Assembly (NCBI RefSeq): GCF_000331995.1
Contig: NC_020134.1
Span: forward strand, 186,001-250,000
Direction: 5' to 3'
DNA: 64,000 bases
From: Thermoclostridium stercorarium subsp. stercorarium DSM 8532
Lineage (GTDB): Bacteria > Bacillota > Clostridia > DSM-8532
Position 1 is the stretch's first letter. Every line of letters starts with the position of its first letter. The notes under the pieces are model-generated. The model worked only from the letters and a program-made list of their open reading frames with translations, ran no database searches and had not been told where the DNA came from. Both the position numbers and the translations under genes were made by a program. Below, piece after piece: positions 19,546 to 32,583 of the stretch.

Positions 19546-20894
19546 GTTTGAAGTTTACCTATAAGGAATTGAAAGCAGAAGAAGTCAGAAAACAGCTTCA
19601 CGGGAACAGGGTTTGAAGTTTACCTATAAGGAATTGAAAGTATAACTGTATAGAAAATCAGGAATACGATTGCCGTTAGTTTGAAGTTTACCTATAAGGA
19701 ATTGAAAGGGAAGCAGCCTTTATGCGGGTAACGCTGGAGGAAACGTTTGAAGTTTACCTATAAGGAATTGAAAGGTTTTCATTTATTTTCAAATGATTCC
19801 TCGGCAAACCGTTTGAAGTTTACCTATAAGGAATTGAAAGTTAATTGAACACTTACATAAACGGTTACCCAAACCAGGGTTTGAAGTTTACCTATAAGGA
19901 ATTGAAAGATAAATGTTGCCTGACGGAAGGGTTTTAGCGGGCGTTTGAAGTTTACCTATAAGGAATTGAAAGAGAAACTCCCCAAATATGAGAAAGTTGC
20001 ATTGATAAGTTTGAAGTTTACCTATAAGGAATTGAAAGTAAAAATTCCCTCATAGAACTGACGTATTTCGTTTGAGTTTGAAGTTTACCTATAAGGAATT
20101 GAAAGCCGACAGATTGCGGCAGCGTTTGGCGTGAAGATGCGTTTGAAGTTTACCTATAAGGAATTGAAAGTGGCACAAAATGTTAATTACAGCAGGGCAA
20201 TCTCAGTTTGAAGTTTACCTATAAGGAATTGAAAGGGCTTAAAAGGTGGTGAATAGGTTTGAATGGCAGGGTTTGAAGTTTACCTATAAGGAATTGAAAG
20301 GAATTTCGCAACTATCCTTGACGATATACCTGCATTGGGTTTGAAGTTTACCTATAAGGAATTGAAAGTTTGAATCGCGGTACAGAACAGTTTCTTTTCT
20401 GTCATGTTTGAAGTTTACCTATAAGGAATTGAAAGATGATAGCATCGTCATAGTACCTTTCTGCTGTTGCGGTTTGAAGTTTACCTATAAGGAATTGAAA
20501 GTCTCGAATTCCTTATCCCTCGCCAGAGTTCCGGGAGTTTGAAGTTTACCTATAAGGAATTGAAACTTGGTTAAATCCCTGATAATTTTACCAACTTTTG
20601 AGTTTGAAGTTTACCTATAAGGAATTGAAACGGCATTGCCCGGCAACCTCGGGACTTACTTTTGCGTTTGAAGTTTACCTATAAGGAATTGAAACACAGC
20701 CAAACCGGGAAACAACTTGCTCTCGGCAGGAAGTTTGAAGTTTACCTATAAGGAATTGAAACGGTATCACCCCAGAAAATGAGAACGCTTCCCGGTGTGT
20801 TTGAAGTTTACCTATAAGGAATTGAAACTCATTAGGCTCCATAGTCTCAAGTTCTTTCTGCATGGTTTGAAGTTTACCTATAAGGAATTGAAAC
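19546..20894 (+). CRISPR. Main CRISPR array: 21 intact 30-nt repeats, plus two degenerate trailing ones to about 21018
   Basis: 21 repeats begin GTTTGAAGTTTACC and end AAGGAATTGAAA plus G or C, starting at 19546, 19611, 19679, 19745, 19811, 19879, 19943, 20009, 20076, 20141, 20206, 20271, 20339, 20406, 20472, 20537, 20602, 20666, 20733, 20799 and 20865. Spacers are 34-38 nt and all differ. The first 15 repeats end in G, the last six in C. Degenerate repeats follow at 20931-20960 and about 20996-21018. The conserved leader side is upstream and decay is at the far end, so the array reads left to right. The GAAAC-type repeat suits clostridial type I or III systems. No cas gene exists anywhere in the window. 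Confidence 0.98.
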
Positions 20895-21074
20895 AGTCTT
20901 ATGTAATAATATGGCTTTTCATTCTTATTTGTTTCAAGTCTACATATAAGAGATTGAAGCATACTTTCTTCGTTGGCACAGTATTTTGCATGGCTGTTTT
21001 AAGTCTACATATGAAGTGGGCCCTCGCAAAGAGTTCTCTATGCACACAGCTTTGACATATCTTTAGCTACCTAA

Positions 21075-23216: not shown

Positions 23217-24589
<1,373 letters not shown>

Positions 24590-24606: not shown

Positions 24607-24907
24607 ATTTGATGGTTATTACCTTCTTTTTATATACAAACAATTCAAAGAAATGTTAAACTGAATTTAGGAAGTTTTGTGAATAAACAAAATAAAATAC
24701 AGCAATATATGCATTACTGGCTAAAAGTAGCCATTGCAAATTGATAGAATATATGGTAATATTTATCCTATGAATCTATTGATGCCCAGTAGCTTAAAAA
24801 CCACCGAGATCGACAGATCTAAAAATTGAGCAATATCAGCTGTTTACGGATTTTAATGCTTAAAATTATGGATTTTATAAAAGCGGCTTTTTATGAGGGT
24901 TTTACGG
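24607..24907 (+). repeat. CRISPR leader, copy 2
   Basis: Second copy of the sequence at 19231-19545. It ends with the same TTTTACGG directly in front of an intact CRISPR repeat. Differences are scattered single bases and small gaps (for example, a run of about 12 nt near 19485-19500 is shortened here), so the duplication is not recent. Confidence 0.8.
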
Positions 24908-25003
24908 GTTTGAAGTTTACCTATAAGGAATTGAAACAGAGTACACATTTCACTTGCCGAGTTCTGCGCATATGTTTAAAGACTACCTATAAGGCATTTA
25001 ACC
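24908..25003 (+). CRISPR. Minimal second CRISPR: one intact and one degenerate repeat
   Basis: 24908-24937 is a perfect copy of the C-ending repeat of the main array. A 36-nt spacer follows, then a degenerate repeat at 24974-25003 (GTTTAAAGACTACCTATAAG then GCATTTAACC). With the leader copy in front it is a functional-looking leader plus a single spacer, or the stub of a collapsed array. Confidence 0.85.
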
Positions 25004-25075
25004 AAGGATGTCCTGTCTGAGGACCGCATTAATCTATAAAGAAAAAACGTAATTTTTCGTTTTCAATAAATTTTG

Positions 25076-25110
25076 TGTCAATAGCGGATTTAAATTATAC
25101 ACCGGCGGTG
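25076..25110 (+). repeat. 35-nt direct repeat, left copy
   Basis: Identical over 35 nt to 32136-32170 and in the same orientation. It begins TGTCAATAGCGG and ends CACCGGCGGTG. It truncates the 3' end of an MFS gene: the transporter frame stops making sense at this point. TGTCA ends suggest the terminus of a lost insertion sequence, but that is inference. Confidence 0.8.
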
Positions 25111-25640
25111 GCATCAACCCTATGATGAACATTCCATTCCACACAGCCATCATTCCACTGTAAATAGTGGCTCTAAATCTATTCTCCGAAATCATTGCCA
25201 TCATCACATCGTATCCAATTGAATGAAAAACTCCTAATCCTGAAGATATTATCATTGTCAGAACTGCAACAAATGGCAAATGGGTAAGCGCAAAAACTAA
25301 CAAGAAAGCTCCTGACAGAACATTTCCTAAAATAAGGCCATTTATAAATCCATAGTTGTATCTATCCACAACTATCCCCGCTACTGGTGTAAGAATCAGT
25401 TGAATTATTCCTAATATGCTAAATATTAGCCTTATTTTTGCACTATCAAGTCCAAAACTTTCTGTCAGATATGGAGAATAGTAATTCCCATATATTGTAA
25501 TTTCTTGATTTATTGTCCTGAAGCATTATAACTTACACCTAAAATTATTATTTTTTGTATAATTGTATAAATATCCTTTCCCAAAGTAATCGCTTTCAAG
25601 AAATCAATTAATTTCTTTTTGATATTCCTAGCAGATGAAA
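25111..25640 (-). pseudogene. Decayed MFS transporter gene
   Basis: Two frames together encode the first half of a major facilitator protein. The upstream frame gives KKKLIDFLKAITLGKDIYTI and then IIILGVSYNASGQ, stopping near 25515. The other frame continues INQEITIYGNYYSPYLTESF-GLDSAKIRLIFS-ILGIIQLILTPVAGIVVDRY and several more helices to FIIGLM, where the 35-nt repeat cuts it. The C-terminal half is absent. It lies directly downstream of the TldD-like gene and may have been part of that cluster. No clear start codon is seen. Confidence 0.7.
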
Positions 25641-25664
25641 TACTGTTAATAACGCATAAAGCTT

Positions 25665-26831
25665 TTACCTTGGCAGTAAACTCTTTCCTAATAACCCATC
25701 AAGTAGTACTGGTGGGGCACTTTGAGCAGAACGTACTGCAATACCATTTTTGACACAAATTCCACCAACTACGGTAAGGTGAATGTTCGAAGAATTCAGA
25801 AAGATCATACTACATACTAACTCTTGAACTGTTGTTTCAATTCCAACTTTCCAATTTACCCTATATATAGGCATCCCACGTTCTATATAAACACCTTCGC
25901 AATTCTTAATCCGAATCCGAGTAGAAACAGGATCCTTATTTAAAAGCTCCAGATCAAGTTCAGTGATCACTAATGCCCTCTCACTCTCATATACTATTGG
26001 CCTAGCTTGAATTACTAGGTTGGTTGTGCGTGGAATAGGGAAAGCACTATTATTGTACCCAAGATATCCACATCCAAGATAATGACATGGGTATGCAGAA
26101 CTATCTATAAACCCCACTATTCTGCCTTGTTCTACAATAGGGATCTGCCTTGTAATTCGGGCATCGTCATTGAAAGCATTGAATCCAATGGTCTCTGCCT
26201 TTGGATCCTCGAAGATTTGTAGATCGACACACTCACCAAAAATCGGAAGATTTTTGATACTCAACGCAGTTTCATAACCTAAAAAGTCAAGTTCTAATAA
26301 ATGAACCCATTCATGGAAGATGTGACCAACAACATTAGGACTTAGGAGGATAGGTAAATTGTTTGGAAAAACTACCCGGTGAGGCAACATGTGAAAAATA
26401 CACAGTTCTTTCAACTTTTCTGGAACATAGTCCGCATATATATAAAATCTAGAATTCTCCTGAAATTGTAATACATAAAATCCCATACGCTGGTGCTTGA
26501 CAAAACCATCTGTTTCTATTGTCCTTTCTTCATGATAAAAAGAAAGTACTGCATCGACAGAATAGTTTGCTACTGTTTCCACAGCAGCAAGCAAGCCTTG
26601 TGTATCAAGAAGCCCTCTCTCAACATATATATCTCCAGGATCTGGTTCCCATACAGCAGCCTTAGGAAGTGTGAACATCTTAGAACCGCCATCACTCTCC
26701 ACAATAACAGTCCTCCCACTGTACATCATACAATGAACCTTGGAATCTTCGTAAGTTTTGATTTCATAAATACGTCCCTTACATATTTTGAAGTGCCGTG
26801 ACCGCAGAAAATATGCTATTCGATAACACAT
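25665..26831 (-). CDS. TldD/PmbA-like metallopeptidase of the radical SAM cluster
   Basis: 388 residues, shorter than TldD (about 480). The C-terminal half is TldD-like: PRTTNLVI matches the family PRMTN segment and GGICVKNGIAV matches the metal-ligand Cys segment (Cys359). The active-site motif is HEWVH at 173-177 followed by LLELDF, where TldD normally has HExxxH; one residue is missing, giving an HExxH zincin motif. TldD-type peptidases trim leader peptides (microcin B17, PQQ-like pathways). The start overlaps the end of the radical SAM gene by 16 bases, so translation is coupled. Probable role: cutting the modified peptide. No TldE partner is present. Confidence 0.8.
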   Translation of the reverse strand: MCYRIAYFLRSRHFKICKGRIYEIKTYEDSKVHCMMYSGRTVIVESDGGSKMFTLPKAAVWEPDPGDIYVERGLLDTQGLLAAVETVANYSVDAVLSFYHEERTIETDGFVKHQRMGFYVLQFQENSRFYIYADYVPEKLKELCIFHMLPHRVVFPNNLPILLSPNVVGHIFHEWVHLLELDFLGYETALSIKNLPIFGECVDLQIFEDPKAETIGFNAFNDDARITRQIPIVEQGRIVGFIDSSAYPCHYLGCGYLGYNNSAFPIPRTTNLVIQARPIVYESERALVITELDLELLNKDPVSTRIRIKNCEGVYIERGMPIYRVNWKVGIETTVQELVCSMIFLNSSNIHLTVVGGICVKNGIAVRSAQSAPPVLLDGLLGKSLLPR

Positions 26832-28189
26832 CCTAAAACACCCGAACTAATTAATGCCCTAAGTTCCACTAGAGGGAGTTCTCTTCCTGTTTGTTTCTTG
26901 AAAGCTAACCTGAGGTCATTCAAGGCAATCCCACATTGGGATGGAATTAAACAATAGATAGTTGATGCATCACCTGTGAGCTCCACGAAAGTATTTCGTG
27001 CCTCATTACGGATAATCAAAGAATCTCCTTGCCACGTTGCAAGTGTAACGAGTTTTACAATTCTTGTGTCATTTCTAATGTTTATTTCTGACAAATAGGC
27101 ATCAGTCCTTTCAGTAGTTATTTTTTTGCTTGCTTGATTCAAGTTAATTGCTCTGATTAATTCTTCTGGTGAAAAAGGACAAAGTGGATCTTCCCCTAAA
27201 AAGTTTCCACTATATGCTACAGCATTACAACGACAACCCCCGCATTTGAAAACCAATGGACAATCTATACATCTTCCCTCAACCTCTCGTTCTCTCCATC
27301 GTCGTAACACAGGATGATTTCGCCATATTTCGGTTAATCTTGTGTTGCACACATTGCCGAGCACATACGAGTTAAGCTGGCAAGGAACAATATCACCATT
27401 ACTACGTACTCCAAAATAGTAAATCCCCGCGCTGCAACCAATAAAAAGACTATTCATAAGCAGTTCCCGATCAACAGCTGCTATCCAGTGCTCATGAGTC
27501 ACTATATATCGGCAGCCTAATTGGGTATTACGTGTCATAATCCAATCCAGAAGCCATTTATATTGTTCGGAGCTCAGATTTTGCTCATATGCCTTTGCAC
27601 CTTTGCCAATAGGAACAAATTGGGAAAGGTTTAGTAATCCAGCCCCCAAGTACAAAGCCAATATAAGTACTGTGTCAAGCTGATTAAAGTTTGTCGGTAC
27701 AATACCCAAGCTGAAGTTAATCCCATATCGCTTTAACAATTTGATGCCTTCAATTTGTTCCTTAAAGTGCCCTTTGTATCCGACAATTTTGTCATGAATT
27801 TCAGGGCTCCCGTGGATGCTTAGATAGAACTGTATCCTATTATCTCCAAGGTCCTTGTTGAGTCGCCAGACCTGTTGTACCACATCTTCACGTTGGTTTA
27901 CCATCATAGTATCAATTGTAATAATCGGCATTTCATCCCCCATTCGTTCCGCTAACTGCTGCAATATCCAGCTAATGTACGGACTTAAAAATGGATCGCC
28001 TCCTCCAATGCCTAGATGTAGTGGTTTCAATTCTACTACATTGTCAAGTATTGTTTCAATTAGATCTCGTGTTTCGGTTGGATGTGATTTTCTTTCAGTG
28101 TTGTAGCAAAAGTTACAATGGAGATGACATGCTGTAGTAAGATCCCAAGACAAGTGGTAAGGTCTATCGGGTACAACAATCTGTTTCAT
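26816..28189 (-). CDS. Radical SAM/SPASM peptide-modifying enzyme with C-terminal PqqD-like domain
   Basis: 457 residues. The radical SAM cluster motif CHLHCNFC has Cys21, 25 and 28; GGGDPF follows as the SAM-binding GGE-type motif. The SPASM region (about 250-335) has GDIVPCQLN, GNVCNTRLTEIW and the cysteine series CIDCP, FKCGGCRCN, CPF, enough for auxiliary Fe-S clusters. The last 80 residues (TFVELTGDASTIYCLIPSQC, then ALNDLRLAF, ELRALISSGVL) look like PqqD, the RiPP recognition element that binds leader peptides. The fusion implies a ribosomal peptide substrate. The start ATG overlaps the MFS stop by four bases. Confidence 0.88.
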   Translation of the reverse strand: MKQIVVPDRPYHLSWDLTTACHLHCNFCYNTERKSHPTETRDLIETILDNVVELKPLHLGIGGGDPFLSPYISWILQQLAERMGDEMPIITIDTMMVNQREDVVQQVWRLNKDLGDNRIQFYLSIHGSPEIHDKIVGYKGHFKEQIEGIKLLKRYGINFSLGIVPTNFNQLDTVLILALYLGAGLLNLSQFVPIGKGAKAYEQNLSSEQYKWLLDWIMTRNTQLGCRYIVTHEHWIAAVDRELLMNSLFIGCSAGIYYFGVRSNGDIVPCQLNSYVLGNVCNTRLTEIWRNHPVLRRWREREVEGRCIDCPLVFKCGGCRCNAVAYSGNFLGEDPLCPFSPEELIRAINLNQASKKITTERTDAYLSEINIRNDTRIVKLVTLATWQGDSLIIRNEARNTFVELTGDASTIYCLIPSQCGIALNDLRLAFKKQTGRELPLVELRALISSGVLGCVIE

Positions 28190-29388
28190 GAATCTTCACC
28201 TCTTAGCACTAACGCAAGTTTTAACAAAAACAAGGAAATCAGCGAAGCTACTCCTGCAAAAAAGAACGTGACTTTAAGCCCCAAAGCTGAGATAAGAGTC
28301 CCCCATAAGAGAGGAGCTACTGCCCAGAAAGCACTACGAAGAGTATTCAAAAAAGATAGTGCTGTTGCCCGTTCGACGCTGATCTGTTCATTTTCTAAAA
28401 GGGTAATACCACTCCCCCTCAAATAACTGGAAGCAATCGCAACAATAACTAAGGCCACAAAAGCCCAAGGCACATGAACTAACGGCATTAATAAAAAGGC
28501 AAGTGCTGATAATAGTGTTGGCCAAAGAATTAGTTTCCGGTAATCGGTGATTTTTATCTTGCAAATATAAAAACCTGTCACTGCTGCAGCCAATGAAGTA
28601 ACACCAAAAGCAAAAGCCGTCTCTTTCAGGTCAACCCCAAACTGTTCCACCATGTAAGTAATCCACCAGGCAGTTGTGATCCAAATGGGAAGTGTAAAGA
28701 AAAAACTCTGAACTGCTGTAATCCATAGAACACGACTTTCTAAAAACTGATAAAATCCCGTTTTGAGTATTTCCAACCACCCTCGGCGGCGGTAATTCCC
28801 ATAGTTCTCAGGAAAGGTCATGATAAACAAGCCATCGGCTATAATGATAACACCAGTCAAAGCAATTGGAATACGCAAGCTGCCAAGGCCTCCCAGAATA
28901 TATGCTACCACCATTCCTATTGCAGTAAATGGAATAGAGTAAAGGTAAAGCTTACCAAAAGCTTTCCTTGTCCCTTCTTGTCCAACACTATCATAGAGCC
29001 ATGCTTCCCGTGTACCGCTCGTAAAAGCATAGGAAATTCCCATTAATACAGCTGTAACAAGTGCAGGACCAAAGGCAGAAATCGAGCTGAGCCATAACAT
29101 TCCTGCACCATAGCAAAACATTGCCAATCCCCAAGAGAGCCTACGGCCCAGCCGGTCTGCAAAAGCTCCAGTCAGGTAATCGATAGCAGATGTCACTGCT
29201 GAGGCAAGTGATACAAAAAATCCAAATTGGGTAGGTGTTAACTCGAGTCCCTTTTCTGTAGTCATAAATTGAATATAGTAAGGATCAAGAATTTTAAAAG
29301 CAAAAAACTCTATAAGGCATACAGCAATAATATAACAGCGAATGTAGTAGGTATAGAGTATTTTTCCATTAGTTGAATGTTCAGTCAT
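28186..29388 (-). CDS. MFS exporter of the radical SAM cluster
   Basis: 400 residues with about 12 hydrophobic segments. The MFS signature between helices 2 and 3 is visible (GAFADRLGRRLSWGLAMFCY). It starts one base after the stop of the upstream radical SAM gene, whose last codons contain the ribosome site GGAGGA. It overlaps the next radical SAM gene by four bases. The tight packing argues for export of the cluster product or immunity to it. The substrate cannot be read from the sequence. Confidence 0.88.
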   Translation of the reverse strand: MTEHSTNGKILYTYYIRCYIIAVCLIEFFAFKILDPYYIQFMTTEKGLELTPTQFGFFVSLASAVTSAIDYLTGAFADRLGRRLSWGLAMFCYGAGMLWLSSISAFGPALVTAVLMGISYAFTSGTREAWLYDSVGQEGTRKAFGKLYLYSIPFTAIGMVVAYILGGLGSLRIPIALTGVIIIADGLFIMTFPENYGNYRRRGWLEILKTGFYQFLESRVLWITAVQSFFFTLPIWITTAWWITYMVEQFGVDLKETAFAFGVTSLAAAVTGFYICKIKITDYRKLILWPTLLSALAFLLMPLVHVPWAFVALVIVAIASSYLRGSGITLLENEQISVERATALSFLNTLRSAFWAVAPLLWGTLISALGLKVTFFFAGVASLISLFLLKLALVLRGEDS

Positions 29389-29389
29389 G

Positions 29390-30616
29390 TCAATATCCTC
29401 CTACCTTTTCCTTTGGTAAATTGGATGGAAAAACTCTAATTTGCTCCTCAGTCAAACCCCTGACAAGGGGACACCAGGGATCCGCAGCAAACCAGTCTTC
29501 AGTAAGATAGTACGTTCTAGCACGGCACCCCCCGCAGAATTCGCGGTACAAACAAGAACGGCACGGTTCAGCAAGTAACGATCCGTTACGAACTCCTTCC
29601 AGCACAGATGAGTGATAAAGAACGATTAGAGATTGCTCAAAAATATTTCCTAAACACAAATCTCGACTGTATAAACAGGGAAGGACTGAGCCATCGGCAG
29701 TAATAGTTAGGTTAGTACGCCCCCAAGGACAAGCTGTGCTCAGATCCAAATAGGGAGAGATGGGGTCAGTAAGAGGGTAATACGGGACATTATAATATAC
29801 TGCAAAAGCCTGTCTAAAATACCTGGTATCGAGTTCTCTAACAAGCTTCATAATTCGTAAATGCTCTTCGTAAGAGATATCAAGCTCTGATTGTACTATA
29901 CATCCACAATAAATCGGAGGGTTAATCCACACATAATTAAATCCCATTTGAAAAGCTAAATCAACATAATCCTCAGTATTGTCCATATTTAATGTAGTAA
30001 GAGTCATGGTACATCCAAGAAATATATTAGAACAGTATTTTATTAGTATCTCTACGCCTCTCATGGTCCTGGCGAACGAACCTTGTCCTCTGATAGCATC
30101 GTGGGTTTGTGCACTAGCTCCATCTAGGGATATCATGACCTCAGAGATACCTAAAGATTCCATAAGCTTTGCTGTTTCTTGGTTAATAAGTGTACCATTA
30201 GTGATAATTGCGATACCTTTAATATCCGGCCCTTGAGCCAACTGAAGCATGTCCCATATCCAGTTATTTGTCAATGGTTCTCCCCCAGAAATTGTCAGCC
30301 AAAGTCCATCCATCTCTAAACACTCCACAAGTTGCCGAGCATCTGCTAAAATACGACTAAATTGCTCCACTGTCATAATTTGTGGCTTAGTCGATACATT
30401 GTAGCACGTTCGACAAGCAAGATTACAAATAGTGGTAATCTCTATATCAAGATTGAAGAGGCGACCTCCAGCAAACTTTTGTTACCGAGCTATTCGCATA
30501 TCTGCTCTACGTCTGAAATGTGGGTCCGAGGTATAATGGGGAGAATTACGCAGAATATTGAGAGGATGATCAATATTTATGTGCTGCTTTCCCACGGAAG
30601 ACCCGCTTCTATCCAT
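29390..30616 (-). pseudogene. Radical SAM/SPASM enzyme gene interrupted by one in-frame TAA (codon 45)
   Basis: ATG at 30616 follows GAGGAGGT at eight bases and lies inside the rhodanese gene. The frame gives MDRSGSSVGKQHINIDHPLN through MRIAR, then TAA at 30484-30482, then in the same frame QKFAGGRLFNLDIEITT-ICNLACRTCYN with the radical SAM cysteines at 64, 68 and 71. The frame continues to 29390 with ISGGEP, SPASM cysteines (CPWGRTNL, CLYSRDLCLGN, CRSCLYREFCGGCRA, CP) and no other stop. CAA to TAA would need one base. The ATG at 30376 lies after the cluster motif, so starting there could not give an active enzyme. Either a nonsense mutation, a sequencing error, or read-through. Confidence 0.85.
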
Positions 30617-30900
30617 TCCTTAGTACCTCCTCTGTAAACTTTTACATTAAATCCATAGTTAGCCAACAATTCCGCTGCCTCGATACAAGATGTACATTCG
30701 TAGCTTGCACAATACGTAATAATAAGTTTATCTTTAGACAAACAGTTTAAATGGTTTGGCAACTCCTCCAAGGGGATTGATATCGAACCCTTAATGTGAG
30801 CCTGCTCATACCAATCGCGAGGAAGAACGTTTAATACAATAACGTCAAGGTTATTTAGCATAGTCAATAACTCTTCTTTTGTTACCATTTCAATTTGCAT
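30577..30900 (-). CDS. Rhodanese-domain sulfurtransferase
   Basis: 107 residues, single rhodanese domain; ATG eight bases after AAAGGAGAG. The family landmarks are present: VIVLNVLPRDWYEQAHIKGS, IPLEEL, the active-site strand TYCASYECTS with catalytic Cys64, and RGGTKEWIEAGLP at the end. It carries sulfur as a persulfide. In this cluster it may supply sulfur for a thio-modification or for Fe-S repair of the radical SAM enzymes; that is inference. Its 3' end overlaps the radical SAM gene by 40 bases. Two more cysteines (69, 72) close to the active site are unusual. Confidence 0.88.
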   Translation of the reverse strand: MQIEMVTKEELLTMLNNLDVIVLNVLPRDWYEQAHIKGSISIPLEELPNHLNCLSKDKLIITYCASYECTSCIEAAELLANYGFNVKVYRGGTKEWIEAGLPWESST

Positions 30901-30953
30901 ATACCATGCTCTCCTTTCTCACTCAGTTAGTTTAACTCTTCTCATTTTAGAAT

Positions 30954-31169
30954 TTACTTTTCCCAAGACAATGATTCTGATAATGCTAACTTGTCCGCAA
31001 ACAACTGTTTTAAGATCTGCTCTTCCCGTATACCAATTATTCCTTTCTCAACAATTTCTGAGGCAACTTCTTCTTGCGCTCGGTTAGTCAGTGAAAGTGG
31101 CATCGCTACAATCCCACCATGAATACACCAGTGAATCTGATAAATCCCTTCATGGATCACCACAGACAT
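30954..31169 (-). CDS. 71-residue protein, candidate precursor peptide or small accessory of the radical SAM cluster
   Basis: ATG follows the best ribosome site in the cluster (ATAGGAGGTGAGATA). The sequence has an N-terminal segment rich in H, W, C and G (IHEGIYQIHWCIHGGIVAMP) and a helical, charged C-terminal part (REEQILKQLFADKLALSESL). It has no homologue I recognise. It is the first gene of the tightly packed maturation genes, where RiPP precursors are usually found, and is strongly translated. If it is the precursor the layout is inverted, because the residues worth modifying (W14, C15, H-rich) are near the N-terminus. A recognition or chaperone role is an alternative. Confidence 0.5.
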   Translation of the reverse strand: MSVVIHEGIYQIHWCIHGGIVAMPLSLTNRAQEEVASEIVEKGIIGIREEQILKQLFADKLALSESLSWEK

Positions 31170-31209
31170 TATCTCACCTCCTATTTTTGTATTTTTTAAG
31201 GACTTATAT

Positions 31210-31271
31210 AATTTGAAAGTTTTAATTTAAGTCACTTAAGAGGTGTGTTTTTTAACTATTGCTTTCAAATT
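31210..31271 (-). promoter_or_regulatory. Inverted repeats upstream of the 71-residue gene
   Basis: A perfect 10-bp inverted repeat AATTTGAAAG (31210-31219)/CTTTCAAATT (31262-31271) encloses a second palindrome TTAAGTCACTTAA (31227-31239). Their position 40-100 nt before the start suggests operators around the promoter. No clean -35/-10 pair is visible. Confidence 0.4.
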
Positions 31272-31429
31272 TAAATTTTTATCTTTTTGTTTATAATCCC
31301 TTATGCTTGTTCAATTGTGATAAATACTCATAAGGAGGAAAGCCTACATCCACCAGCTTCAATTACTTTATAAAATATCTTCGAACTCTTTACTTCTCAG
31401 CTAAAAATTGGATTTCTATTCTTCTATGT
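31272..31429. other. Non-coding part of the cluster leader
   Basis: AT-rich DNA between the 71-residue gene and the 35-residue peptide gene. Apart from the inverted repeats and the hairpin described separately, no open frame with a ribosome site was found on either strand. Confidence 0.35.
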
Positions 31430-31463
31430 TTAAAAATCTAGACTTGCCTTCAAAGCCTAGATT
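31430..31463 (-). terminator. Hairpin terminator or attenuator ahead of the cluster
   Basis: On the minus strand AATCTAGGCTT pairs with AAGTCTAGATT (10 of 11) around a 7-nt loop and is followed by TTTTAAAC. It would end the transcript of the 35-residue peptide gene or attenuate read-through into the maturation genes. Confidence 0.55.
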
Positions 31464-31674
31464 CCCTTCCTCTGATCATTGCCGCAAGGGTTATTCTCTC
31501 ATCGTGCAATATTTAAAACTTTTGCTGTTATAAAAGTTGAAAGATAATGATGGACTAAAGATTAGTTTTTACAATGAGCAAATCAGCAAGGTCAGATTAA
31601 TAAAGTTAGAAACAATTTAATTTAAAATTATTAAAAGTAGCTCAATTTTAACCCGCTATTGATATTATTACCTC

Positions 31675-31782
31675 TTAACCTACCCAAATAGGAGGATTTT
31701 CAAGTGGAATTACAATAAAAACCCCATATACATAGGCAAGGAGTATCAGTGATGTGAGTAGCACCCAAAGTTTCCCCCTCAT
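31675..31782 (-). CDS. 35-residue single-helix membrane peptide
   Basis: ATG at 31782 follows AAGAGGGGG. The product is MRGKLWVLLTSLILLAYVYG and then VFIVIPLENPPIWVG: a basic N-terminus, one hydrophobic helix and a short proline- and tryptophan-containing tail. It is the most upstream gene of the minus-strand cluster and has a textbook promoter with a palindrome on the -35. It could be a secreted signal, a bacteriocin-like peptide, a small membrane anchor, or the true substrate of the cluster; none can be chosen from sequence alone. It is separated from the next gene by a hairpin. Confidence 0.55.
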   Translation of the reverse strand: MRGKLWVLLTSLILLAYVYGVFIVIPLENPPIWVG

Positions 31783-31819
31783 TTTGTTCCCCCTCTTAAC
31801 TGTCTACTCTCTTACCTTT

Positions 31820-31860
31820 ATTATAACATAAAAAATGGAAATATGCAATATATTTTCCAT
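31820..31860 (-). promoter_or_regulatory. Strong promoter with operator-like palindrome for the 35-residue peptide gene
   Basis: On the minus strand TTGCAT (31848-31843) and a perfect TATAAT (31825-31820) are 17 nt apart. A 26-nt palindrome (31835-31860, arms ATGGAAA/TTTCCAT) covers the -35 box, as expected for a repressor site. Confidence 0.7.
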
Positions 31861-31988: not shown

Positions 31989-32126
31989 TTAATTCATATA
32001 CCCTTGAACAACTTCTCTAGAGCTTTTTCCATTCAACACCTTCCGTGGATAATTATCTATCCATTCTTGTATCTCTAAAATAGCTTTTATACTGTATTTA
32101 GCTATAGCACTTCTCCTCGGAATGAA
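31989..32126 (-). pseudogene. C-terminal remnant of an IS30-family transposase
   Basis: The frame FIPRRSAIAKYSIKAILEIQ then EWIDNYPRKVLNGKSSREVV-QGYMN to TAA matches the last 45 residues of IS30 transposases (compare [11 protein letters not shown]...[20 protein letters not shown] at 23413). It is cut at its N-terminal side close to the right 35-nt repeat. It differs too much from the intact IS30 here to be a copy of it. Confidence 0.7.
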
Positions 32127-32135
32127 TCATCATAA

Positions 32136-32170
32136 TGTCAATAGCGGATTTAAATTATACACCGGCGGTG
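32136..32170 (+). repeat. 35-nt direct repeat, right copy
   Basis: Identical to 25076-25110. In this copy the sequence continues ACA, so the unit reads TGTCA...TGACA with inverted 5-bp ends. It truncates the IS30 transposase remnant on its left. The two copies lie 7,060 bp apart and bracket the radical SAM cluster. Confidence 0.8.
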
Positions 32171-32224
32171 ACATTTTGCTTATAAGAAGTGGAATAATGT
32201 ATAGGTGGTTCTATTAAAACTATC

Positions 32225-32489: not shown

Positions 32490-32583
32490 TGGCGGAGAGA
32501 GAGGGATTCGAACCCTCGGTACCCCTTTTGGGGGTACACACGATTTCCAGTCGTGCGCCTTAGACCAGCTCAGCCATCTCTCC
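32490..32583 (-). tRNA. tRNA-Ser (anticodon GGA)
   Basis: Long class II tRNA: acceptor GGAGAGA/TCTCTCC, anticodon stem CACGA/TCGTG with loop CTGGAAA, a long variable arm TACCCCC-AAAA-GGGGGTA-type, T loop TTCGAAT and an encoded CCA (32492-32490). Anticodon GGA reads UCC and UCU. Confidence 0.95.

Follow-up and report, generated by a model that had tools for sequence, protein, structure and literature searches.

A putative RiPP-type peptide maturation operon of unnamed composition, possibly moved horizontally and inactivated, in a Clostridia genome

The locus lies in the window, that is, the whole 64,000-nucleotide stretch of DNA analyzed, within a genome of 2.97 Mb in a single contig. It holds a minus-strand operon transcribed in the order 71-residue protein, rhodanese, radical SAM gene 1, MFS 1, radical SAM gene 2, TldD-like peptidase and MFS 2 remnant. 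The one relative that the protein searches described below brought up is referred to as G475; an exact 41-nt pattern search of genome contigs returned only its contig once more, from the MAG Clostridia bacterium AS04akNAM_103 (DULG01000085.1). The features of the locus are as follows.

31170-31328, minus strand: conserved leader region 5' of the 71-residue protein gene (blastn block 31328-30593)
30954-31169, minus strand: gene P0005 of the 71-residue protein, candidate precursor peptide (strong Shine-Dalgarno; copy in G475)
30577-30900, minus strand: P0004, single-domain rhodanese (Pfam PF00581, E 4.3e-17)
29390-30616, minus strand: radical SAM/SPASM gene 1, interrupted by a stop (PF04055, 6.9e-20; SPASM, 2.2e-10; both after the stop)
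30482-30484, minus strand: in-frame TAA inside radical SAM gene 1 (from the translation and codon list)
28186-29388, minus strand: P0003, MFS transporter 1 (PF07690, E 3.7e-24; G475 copy intact)
26816-28189, minus strand: P0002, radical SAM/SPASM gene 2 (PF04055, 3.5e-15; SPASM, 4.8e-10)
25665-26831, minus strand: P0001, TldD-like metallopeptidase (PF19289, E 2.5e-8)
25034-25546, minus strand: MFS 2 remnant, truncated at both ends (protein and DNA match to MFS 2 of G475)
25076-25114, plus strand: left copy of a 39-nt direct repeat (repeat D3), cutting MFS 2
32136-32174, plus strand: right copy of the 39-nt direct repeat, upstream of the cluster (97% identical)

The Pfam matches bear out the rhodanese, the TldD-like peptidase and the MFS gene that the initial annotation had placed in the operon. 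Successive genes from the 71-residue protein to the TldD-like peptidase are spaced by 53, -40, 1, -4 and -16 nt. The packing is tight: the overlaps measure 40, 4 and 16 nt, there is one 1-nt gap, and 53 nt follow the 71-residue gene. Homology with G475 begins only at 31328, so the gene of a 35-residue membrane peptide (31675-31782), formerly counted with the cluster, lies outside the conserved block and drops out of it.

The upstream radical SAM gene had been listed as a 328-residue ORF starting at 30376, which is devoid of the CX3CX2C motif (30404-30427) located upstream of that start. Reading upstream in the same frame gave 44 more codons, from an ATG at 30616 with a strong Shine-Dalgarno (AGAGGAGGTACTAAGGA); this is the true frame, which ends at 29390. 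Its start overlaps the rhodanese gene by 40 nt, the pattern of a translationally coupled operon, and this hidden 5' part fills the seeming gap of ~200 nt after the rhodanese. The frame is interrupted by the TAA at 30482-30484, which precedes the CX3CX2C motif, and no ATG, GTG or TTG occurs between the two. When read from behind the stop, the gene encodes Radical_SAM and SPASM domains above the Pfam cut-offs together with CX3CX2C, and no intact frame runs through the motif; as sequenced, standard starts give no enzyme bearing the radical SAM iron-sulfur motif. Hence, the Pfam domains uphold the presence of two radical SAM/SPASM genes, but two working enzymes cannot be claimed, because gene 1 is interrupted by the TAA.

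This stop, found in the one strain sequence examined, could be a sequencing error. We consider it unlikely that the cluster is still functional here, either because the TAA is such an error or is bypassed, or because radical SAM 2 alone suffices. All cluster genes save radical SAM 1 and MFS 2 have open frames in this genome, and a single base triplet breaks radical SAM 1, the remainder of which keeps both an open frame and its cysteines. Set against this are the lack of a usable start between stop and motif, the truncation of MFS 2, the ruined state of the G475 copy, and a radical SAM 2 without significant constraint between the window and G475 (dN/dS 0.69, p 0.56, indistinguishable from 1).

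Radical SAM 2 carries the CX3CX2C motif as CHLHCNFC at residue 21 and both Radical_SAM and SPASM domains above the Pfam cut-offs. Its residues 1-228 are 93% identical to the G475 copy, and beyond G475 other radical SAM proteins match it at about 24-32% identity. The initial annotation assigned a fused PqqD-like domain to its C-terminal extension of ~110 residues (26819-27145), and this assignment was not confirmed: radical SAM 2 has no PqqD Pfam match, the hhalign score of the extension against PqqD falls within the range of shuffles, and Foldseek gave no usable fold match for the low-confidence model of the extension (pLDDT 53). The model does place its elements in the order expected for a PqqD-type element (beta-beta-beta-alpha-alpha-alpha), which makes a recognition element in the extension possible. 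A PqqD hit elsewhere in the genome sits in a separate radical SAM ORF and was rejected as a part of the cluster.

Neither radical SAM enzyme reached any of the NCBIfam equivalog cut-offs (PqqE, MftC, ScmE/F, PapB, SkfB, AhbD, NirJ), in agreement with the earlier statement that the gene combination matches no named pathway; no curated equivalog model claims either protein. The highest NCBIfam scores were those of heme b synthase AhbD for gene 1 (138 bits) and NirJ2 for gene 2 (126 bits), both against cut-offs of 500 bits. These scores lend some color to the idea that the cluster acts on a non-peptide substrate, a tetrapyrrole or other cofactor, with the 71-residue protein as an accessory. We regard this as quite improbable, as the scores reach only about a quarter of the cut-offs, PqqE, mycofactocin and other peptide maturases match too, and a peptide substrate is what the operon's TldD-like peptidase points to. 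The operon also differs from AhbD/NirJ haem systems in that no haem genes were seen in it. A PDB sequence search with the radical SAM proteins returned other radical SAM chains, including the solved SkfB and PqqE. The cluster resembles the PQQ system (PqqA, PqqD, PqqE) in having a PqqE-type radical SAM/SPASM enzyme near a small protein gene, whereas the PqqE model scored only 105 bits for gene 1 and 78 bits for gene 2 against a cut-off of 381 bits, and the cluster has two radical SAM genes, a TldD-like peptidase, a rhodanese and MFS genes without a PqqD hit. Mycofactocin MftC, sactipeptide SkfB/AlbA and ranthipeptide PapB belong to the same enzyme superfamily as the radical SAM/SPASM proteins of the cluster, but their equivalog cut-offs are not attained and the 71-residue protein is in no described family.

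The TldD-like protein scored 33.8 bits with PF19289 (cut-off 22), placing it among proteins with a PmbA/TldD domain. It has HEWVH at 26301-26315, one residue shorter than HExxxH, and a cysteine, Cys359, near the C-terminus; its His, Glu and His residues and Cys359 align with those of TldD-family proteins. A PDB sequence search with this protein found nothing meaningful. PF19289 and the His/Glu/His/Cys set are thus common to the cluster protein and the microcin-processing protease TldD/TldE (PmbA; MEROPS M103), from which the former differs in having HExxH instead of HExxxH, a shorter N-terminal part and an operon that lacks a TldE partner. Trimming of other RiPPs by TldD-family peptidases is known, and the processing proteases of microcin B17, klebsazolicin and microcin C are encoded elsewhere (PMC10885120); in contrast, the TldD-like gene here sits inside the cluster. 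In the rhodanese, Cys64 occupies the active-site loop position. The MFS 2 remnant is 79% identical to residues 238-381 of the intact 410-residue MFS 2 of G475, and 88% identical at the DNA level.

The 71-residue gene has the very strong ribosome site noted initially (AGGAGGTGAGATA-ATG). It is 94% identical to a copy in G475, and comparison of the two genes gave dS 0.30, dN 0.028 and dN/dS 0.09 (p 3.5e-6), indicating that it belonged to the cluster as a genuine gene under selection. A conserved small gene, under past purifying selection, therefore accompanies the maturase genes in both copies known, the second in a distant genome, as the proposal of a co-occurring 71-residue homologue had anticipated. 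The protein matches no Pfam or NCBIfam family, and shows no similarity to the PqqD profile. It also lacks an obvious leader-core layout, which we counted against a RiPP reading. A folded leader upstream of the gene was rejected (z -0.77). The single-sequence, low-confidence model of the protein (pLDDT 60) is a strand hairpin plus two helices, for which Foldseek gave no usable match. Because this shape is not that of a disordered leader, the 71-residue protein might be a recognition or scaffold protein of a RiPP-type cluster whose true precursor is another small ORF, missed or lost. We give this little credence, considering the nature of the model, the lack of PqqD similarity and the fact that reading through the blocks shared with G475, as opposed to a systematic test, turned up no other conspicuous small ORF.

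In G475 the cluster genes keep the order seen in the window, on two contig ends, and have decayed by different lesions. The 71-residue gene, MFS 1 and MFS 2 are intact; the rhodanese has a frameshifting deletion, radical SAM 1 is lost save its last codons, and radical SAM 2 is joined out of frame to the TldD-like tail. An element between the radical SAM 1 end and MFS 1 looks like an insertion element of IS607 type, through which the two contigs would join. The dN/dS values between the window and G475 were 0.24 and 0.28 for the rhodanese pieces, 0.17 for the TldD-like tail, 0.41 for MFS 1 and 0.11 for the MFS 2 fragment, some of these values resting on few changes. DNA mismatch was ~6.5% in the 71-residue gene and rhodanese, 2.5% from the radical SAM 1 end to radical SAM 2, and 10.6% from the TldD tail to MFS 2, the middle block differing from its neighbors with p 4e-6 and 9e-15. 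This mosaic of block identities (about 90/97/88%) shifts at the G475 deletion junctions, which hints that two cluster lineages recombined. The GC content of the cluster genes (0.38-0.42; window, 0.41) is above that of the G475 contig flanks (0.31 and 0.36), so that in G475, at any rate, the cluster appears to be foreign DNA.

The TldD-like and 71-residue proteins were each searched against a sample of 398 genomes of the phylum, and strong matches of both were found only in this genome and G475. There was no other strong match to the TldD-like protein in the 99 nearest relatives, in the 24 and 37 genomes sampled around G475 (from its order and class) or in 391 genomes of the class; these five samples amount to 949 genome searches and, as they overlap, to fewer distinct genomes. 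Weaker phylum matches (E 4e-4 and 6e-4 for the TldD-like protein, 0.003-0.008 for the 71-residue protein) were rejected as relatives, being either partial matches in the 18-31% identity class or parts of larger ORFs. Searching the genome contigs with the TldD-like protein gave nothing credible. The weak hits of this protein in G107, G511, G538 and G513 are TldD-family ORFs, and the gene lists around those in G107 and G511 contain no such cluster. In G511, a 393-residue TldD-like gene (L038:2887-4068) that has another TldD/PmbA-like ORF and genes for ABC transporters as neighbors possibly marks another peptide-processing locus. No relatives of the cluster occurred in plasmids, phages or viral contigs, and an empty-site comparison within the genus matched only the tRNA and little flank. 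Thus, the neighborhood comparison has one relative to offer, with the same gene order and the 71-residue gene retained. The gene combination is not described in the open-access literature searched, which is weak evidence of novelty. Absence from the other sampled genomes of the genus, family and class, taken together with the mosaic identities, fits horizontal transfer.

Taken together, we read the locus, with about evenly balanced confidence, as an operon for RiPP-type peptide maturation, rare and unnamed in its composition, that has moved by horizontal transfer and no longer works as a complete system here, given that the TAA precedes CX3CX2C and MFS 2 is doubly truncated. The initial proposal that the cluster makes, trims and exports a modified peptide fits the toolkit (the domains and the co-occurring 71-residue gene), although radical SAM 1 is interrupted in this copy; all the biochemical roles, like the peptide nature of the product, are our inferences. 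In the intact pathway, the 71-residue protein would be the substrate and the two radical SAM/SPASM enzymes would modify it, with the Tyr/His/Trp/Cys-rich stretch YQIHWCIHGG as a plausible target, while the C-terminal extension of radical SAM 2 may serve to hold it. Sulfur handling would fall to the rhodanese, the TldD-like peptidase would trim the modified peptide, and one or both MFS proteins would export it. A bolder and rather doubtful version is an unnamed RiPP class in which a 71-residue precursor is modified near its N-terminus (YQIHWCIHGG) and recognized through C-terminal helices, with two radical SAM/SPASM enzymes plus a rhodanese and HExxH TldD trimming, encoded by a mobile, decaying Clostridia cassette. 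As it stands, the locus offers no working pathway. An intact copy, if found, would add a RiPP-type pathway whose gene combination is unrecorded, together with a peptide outside all known families and a TldD variant whose metal motif is shortened. Both damaged copies illustrate how cassettes of this kind pass between distant Clostridia before decaying gene by gene, and the case of radical SAM 1 illustrates that ORF lists alone can conceal a broken key enzyme.

The 39-nt direct repeat looks like an insertion-element end, and the genome contains no more than two copies of its 35-nt core. By sequence reading, an IS30-type transposase gene (23413-24483) adjoins the cluster, and a fragment near 31990-32100 resembles the end of such a gene. 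An inverted 25-nt repeat (31644-31668 and 32132-32156, 88% complementary), with the 35-residue ORF between its arms, resembles two element ends. Just upstream of the cluster lies a tRNA gene (32493-32583, minus strand, Rfam); tRNA genes are a common integration neighborhood. Farther along, 33424-63960 reads as several sugar-type ABC transporter sets (binding protein plus two permeases) with AraC-type regulators. On the other side is a CRISPR array (20008-20970; repeat GTTTGAAGTTTACCTATAAGGAATTGAAA, Rfam CRISPR-DR2), and one more intact and one degenerate copy of its repeat occur at 24907-25013, about 4 kb from the array and beyond the IS30-type transposase gene as well as the 39-nt repeat, an arrangement that might arise if the array end had been split off.
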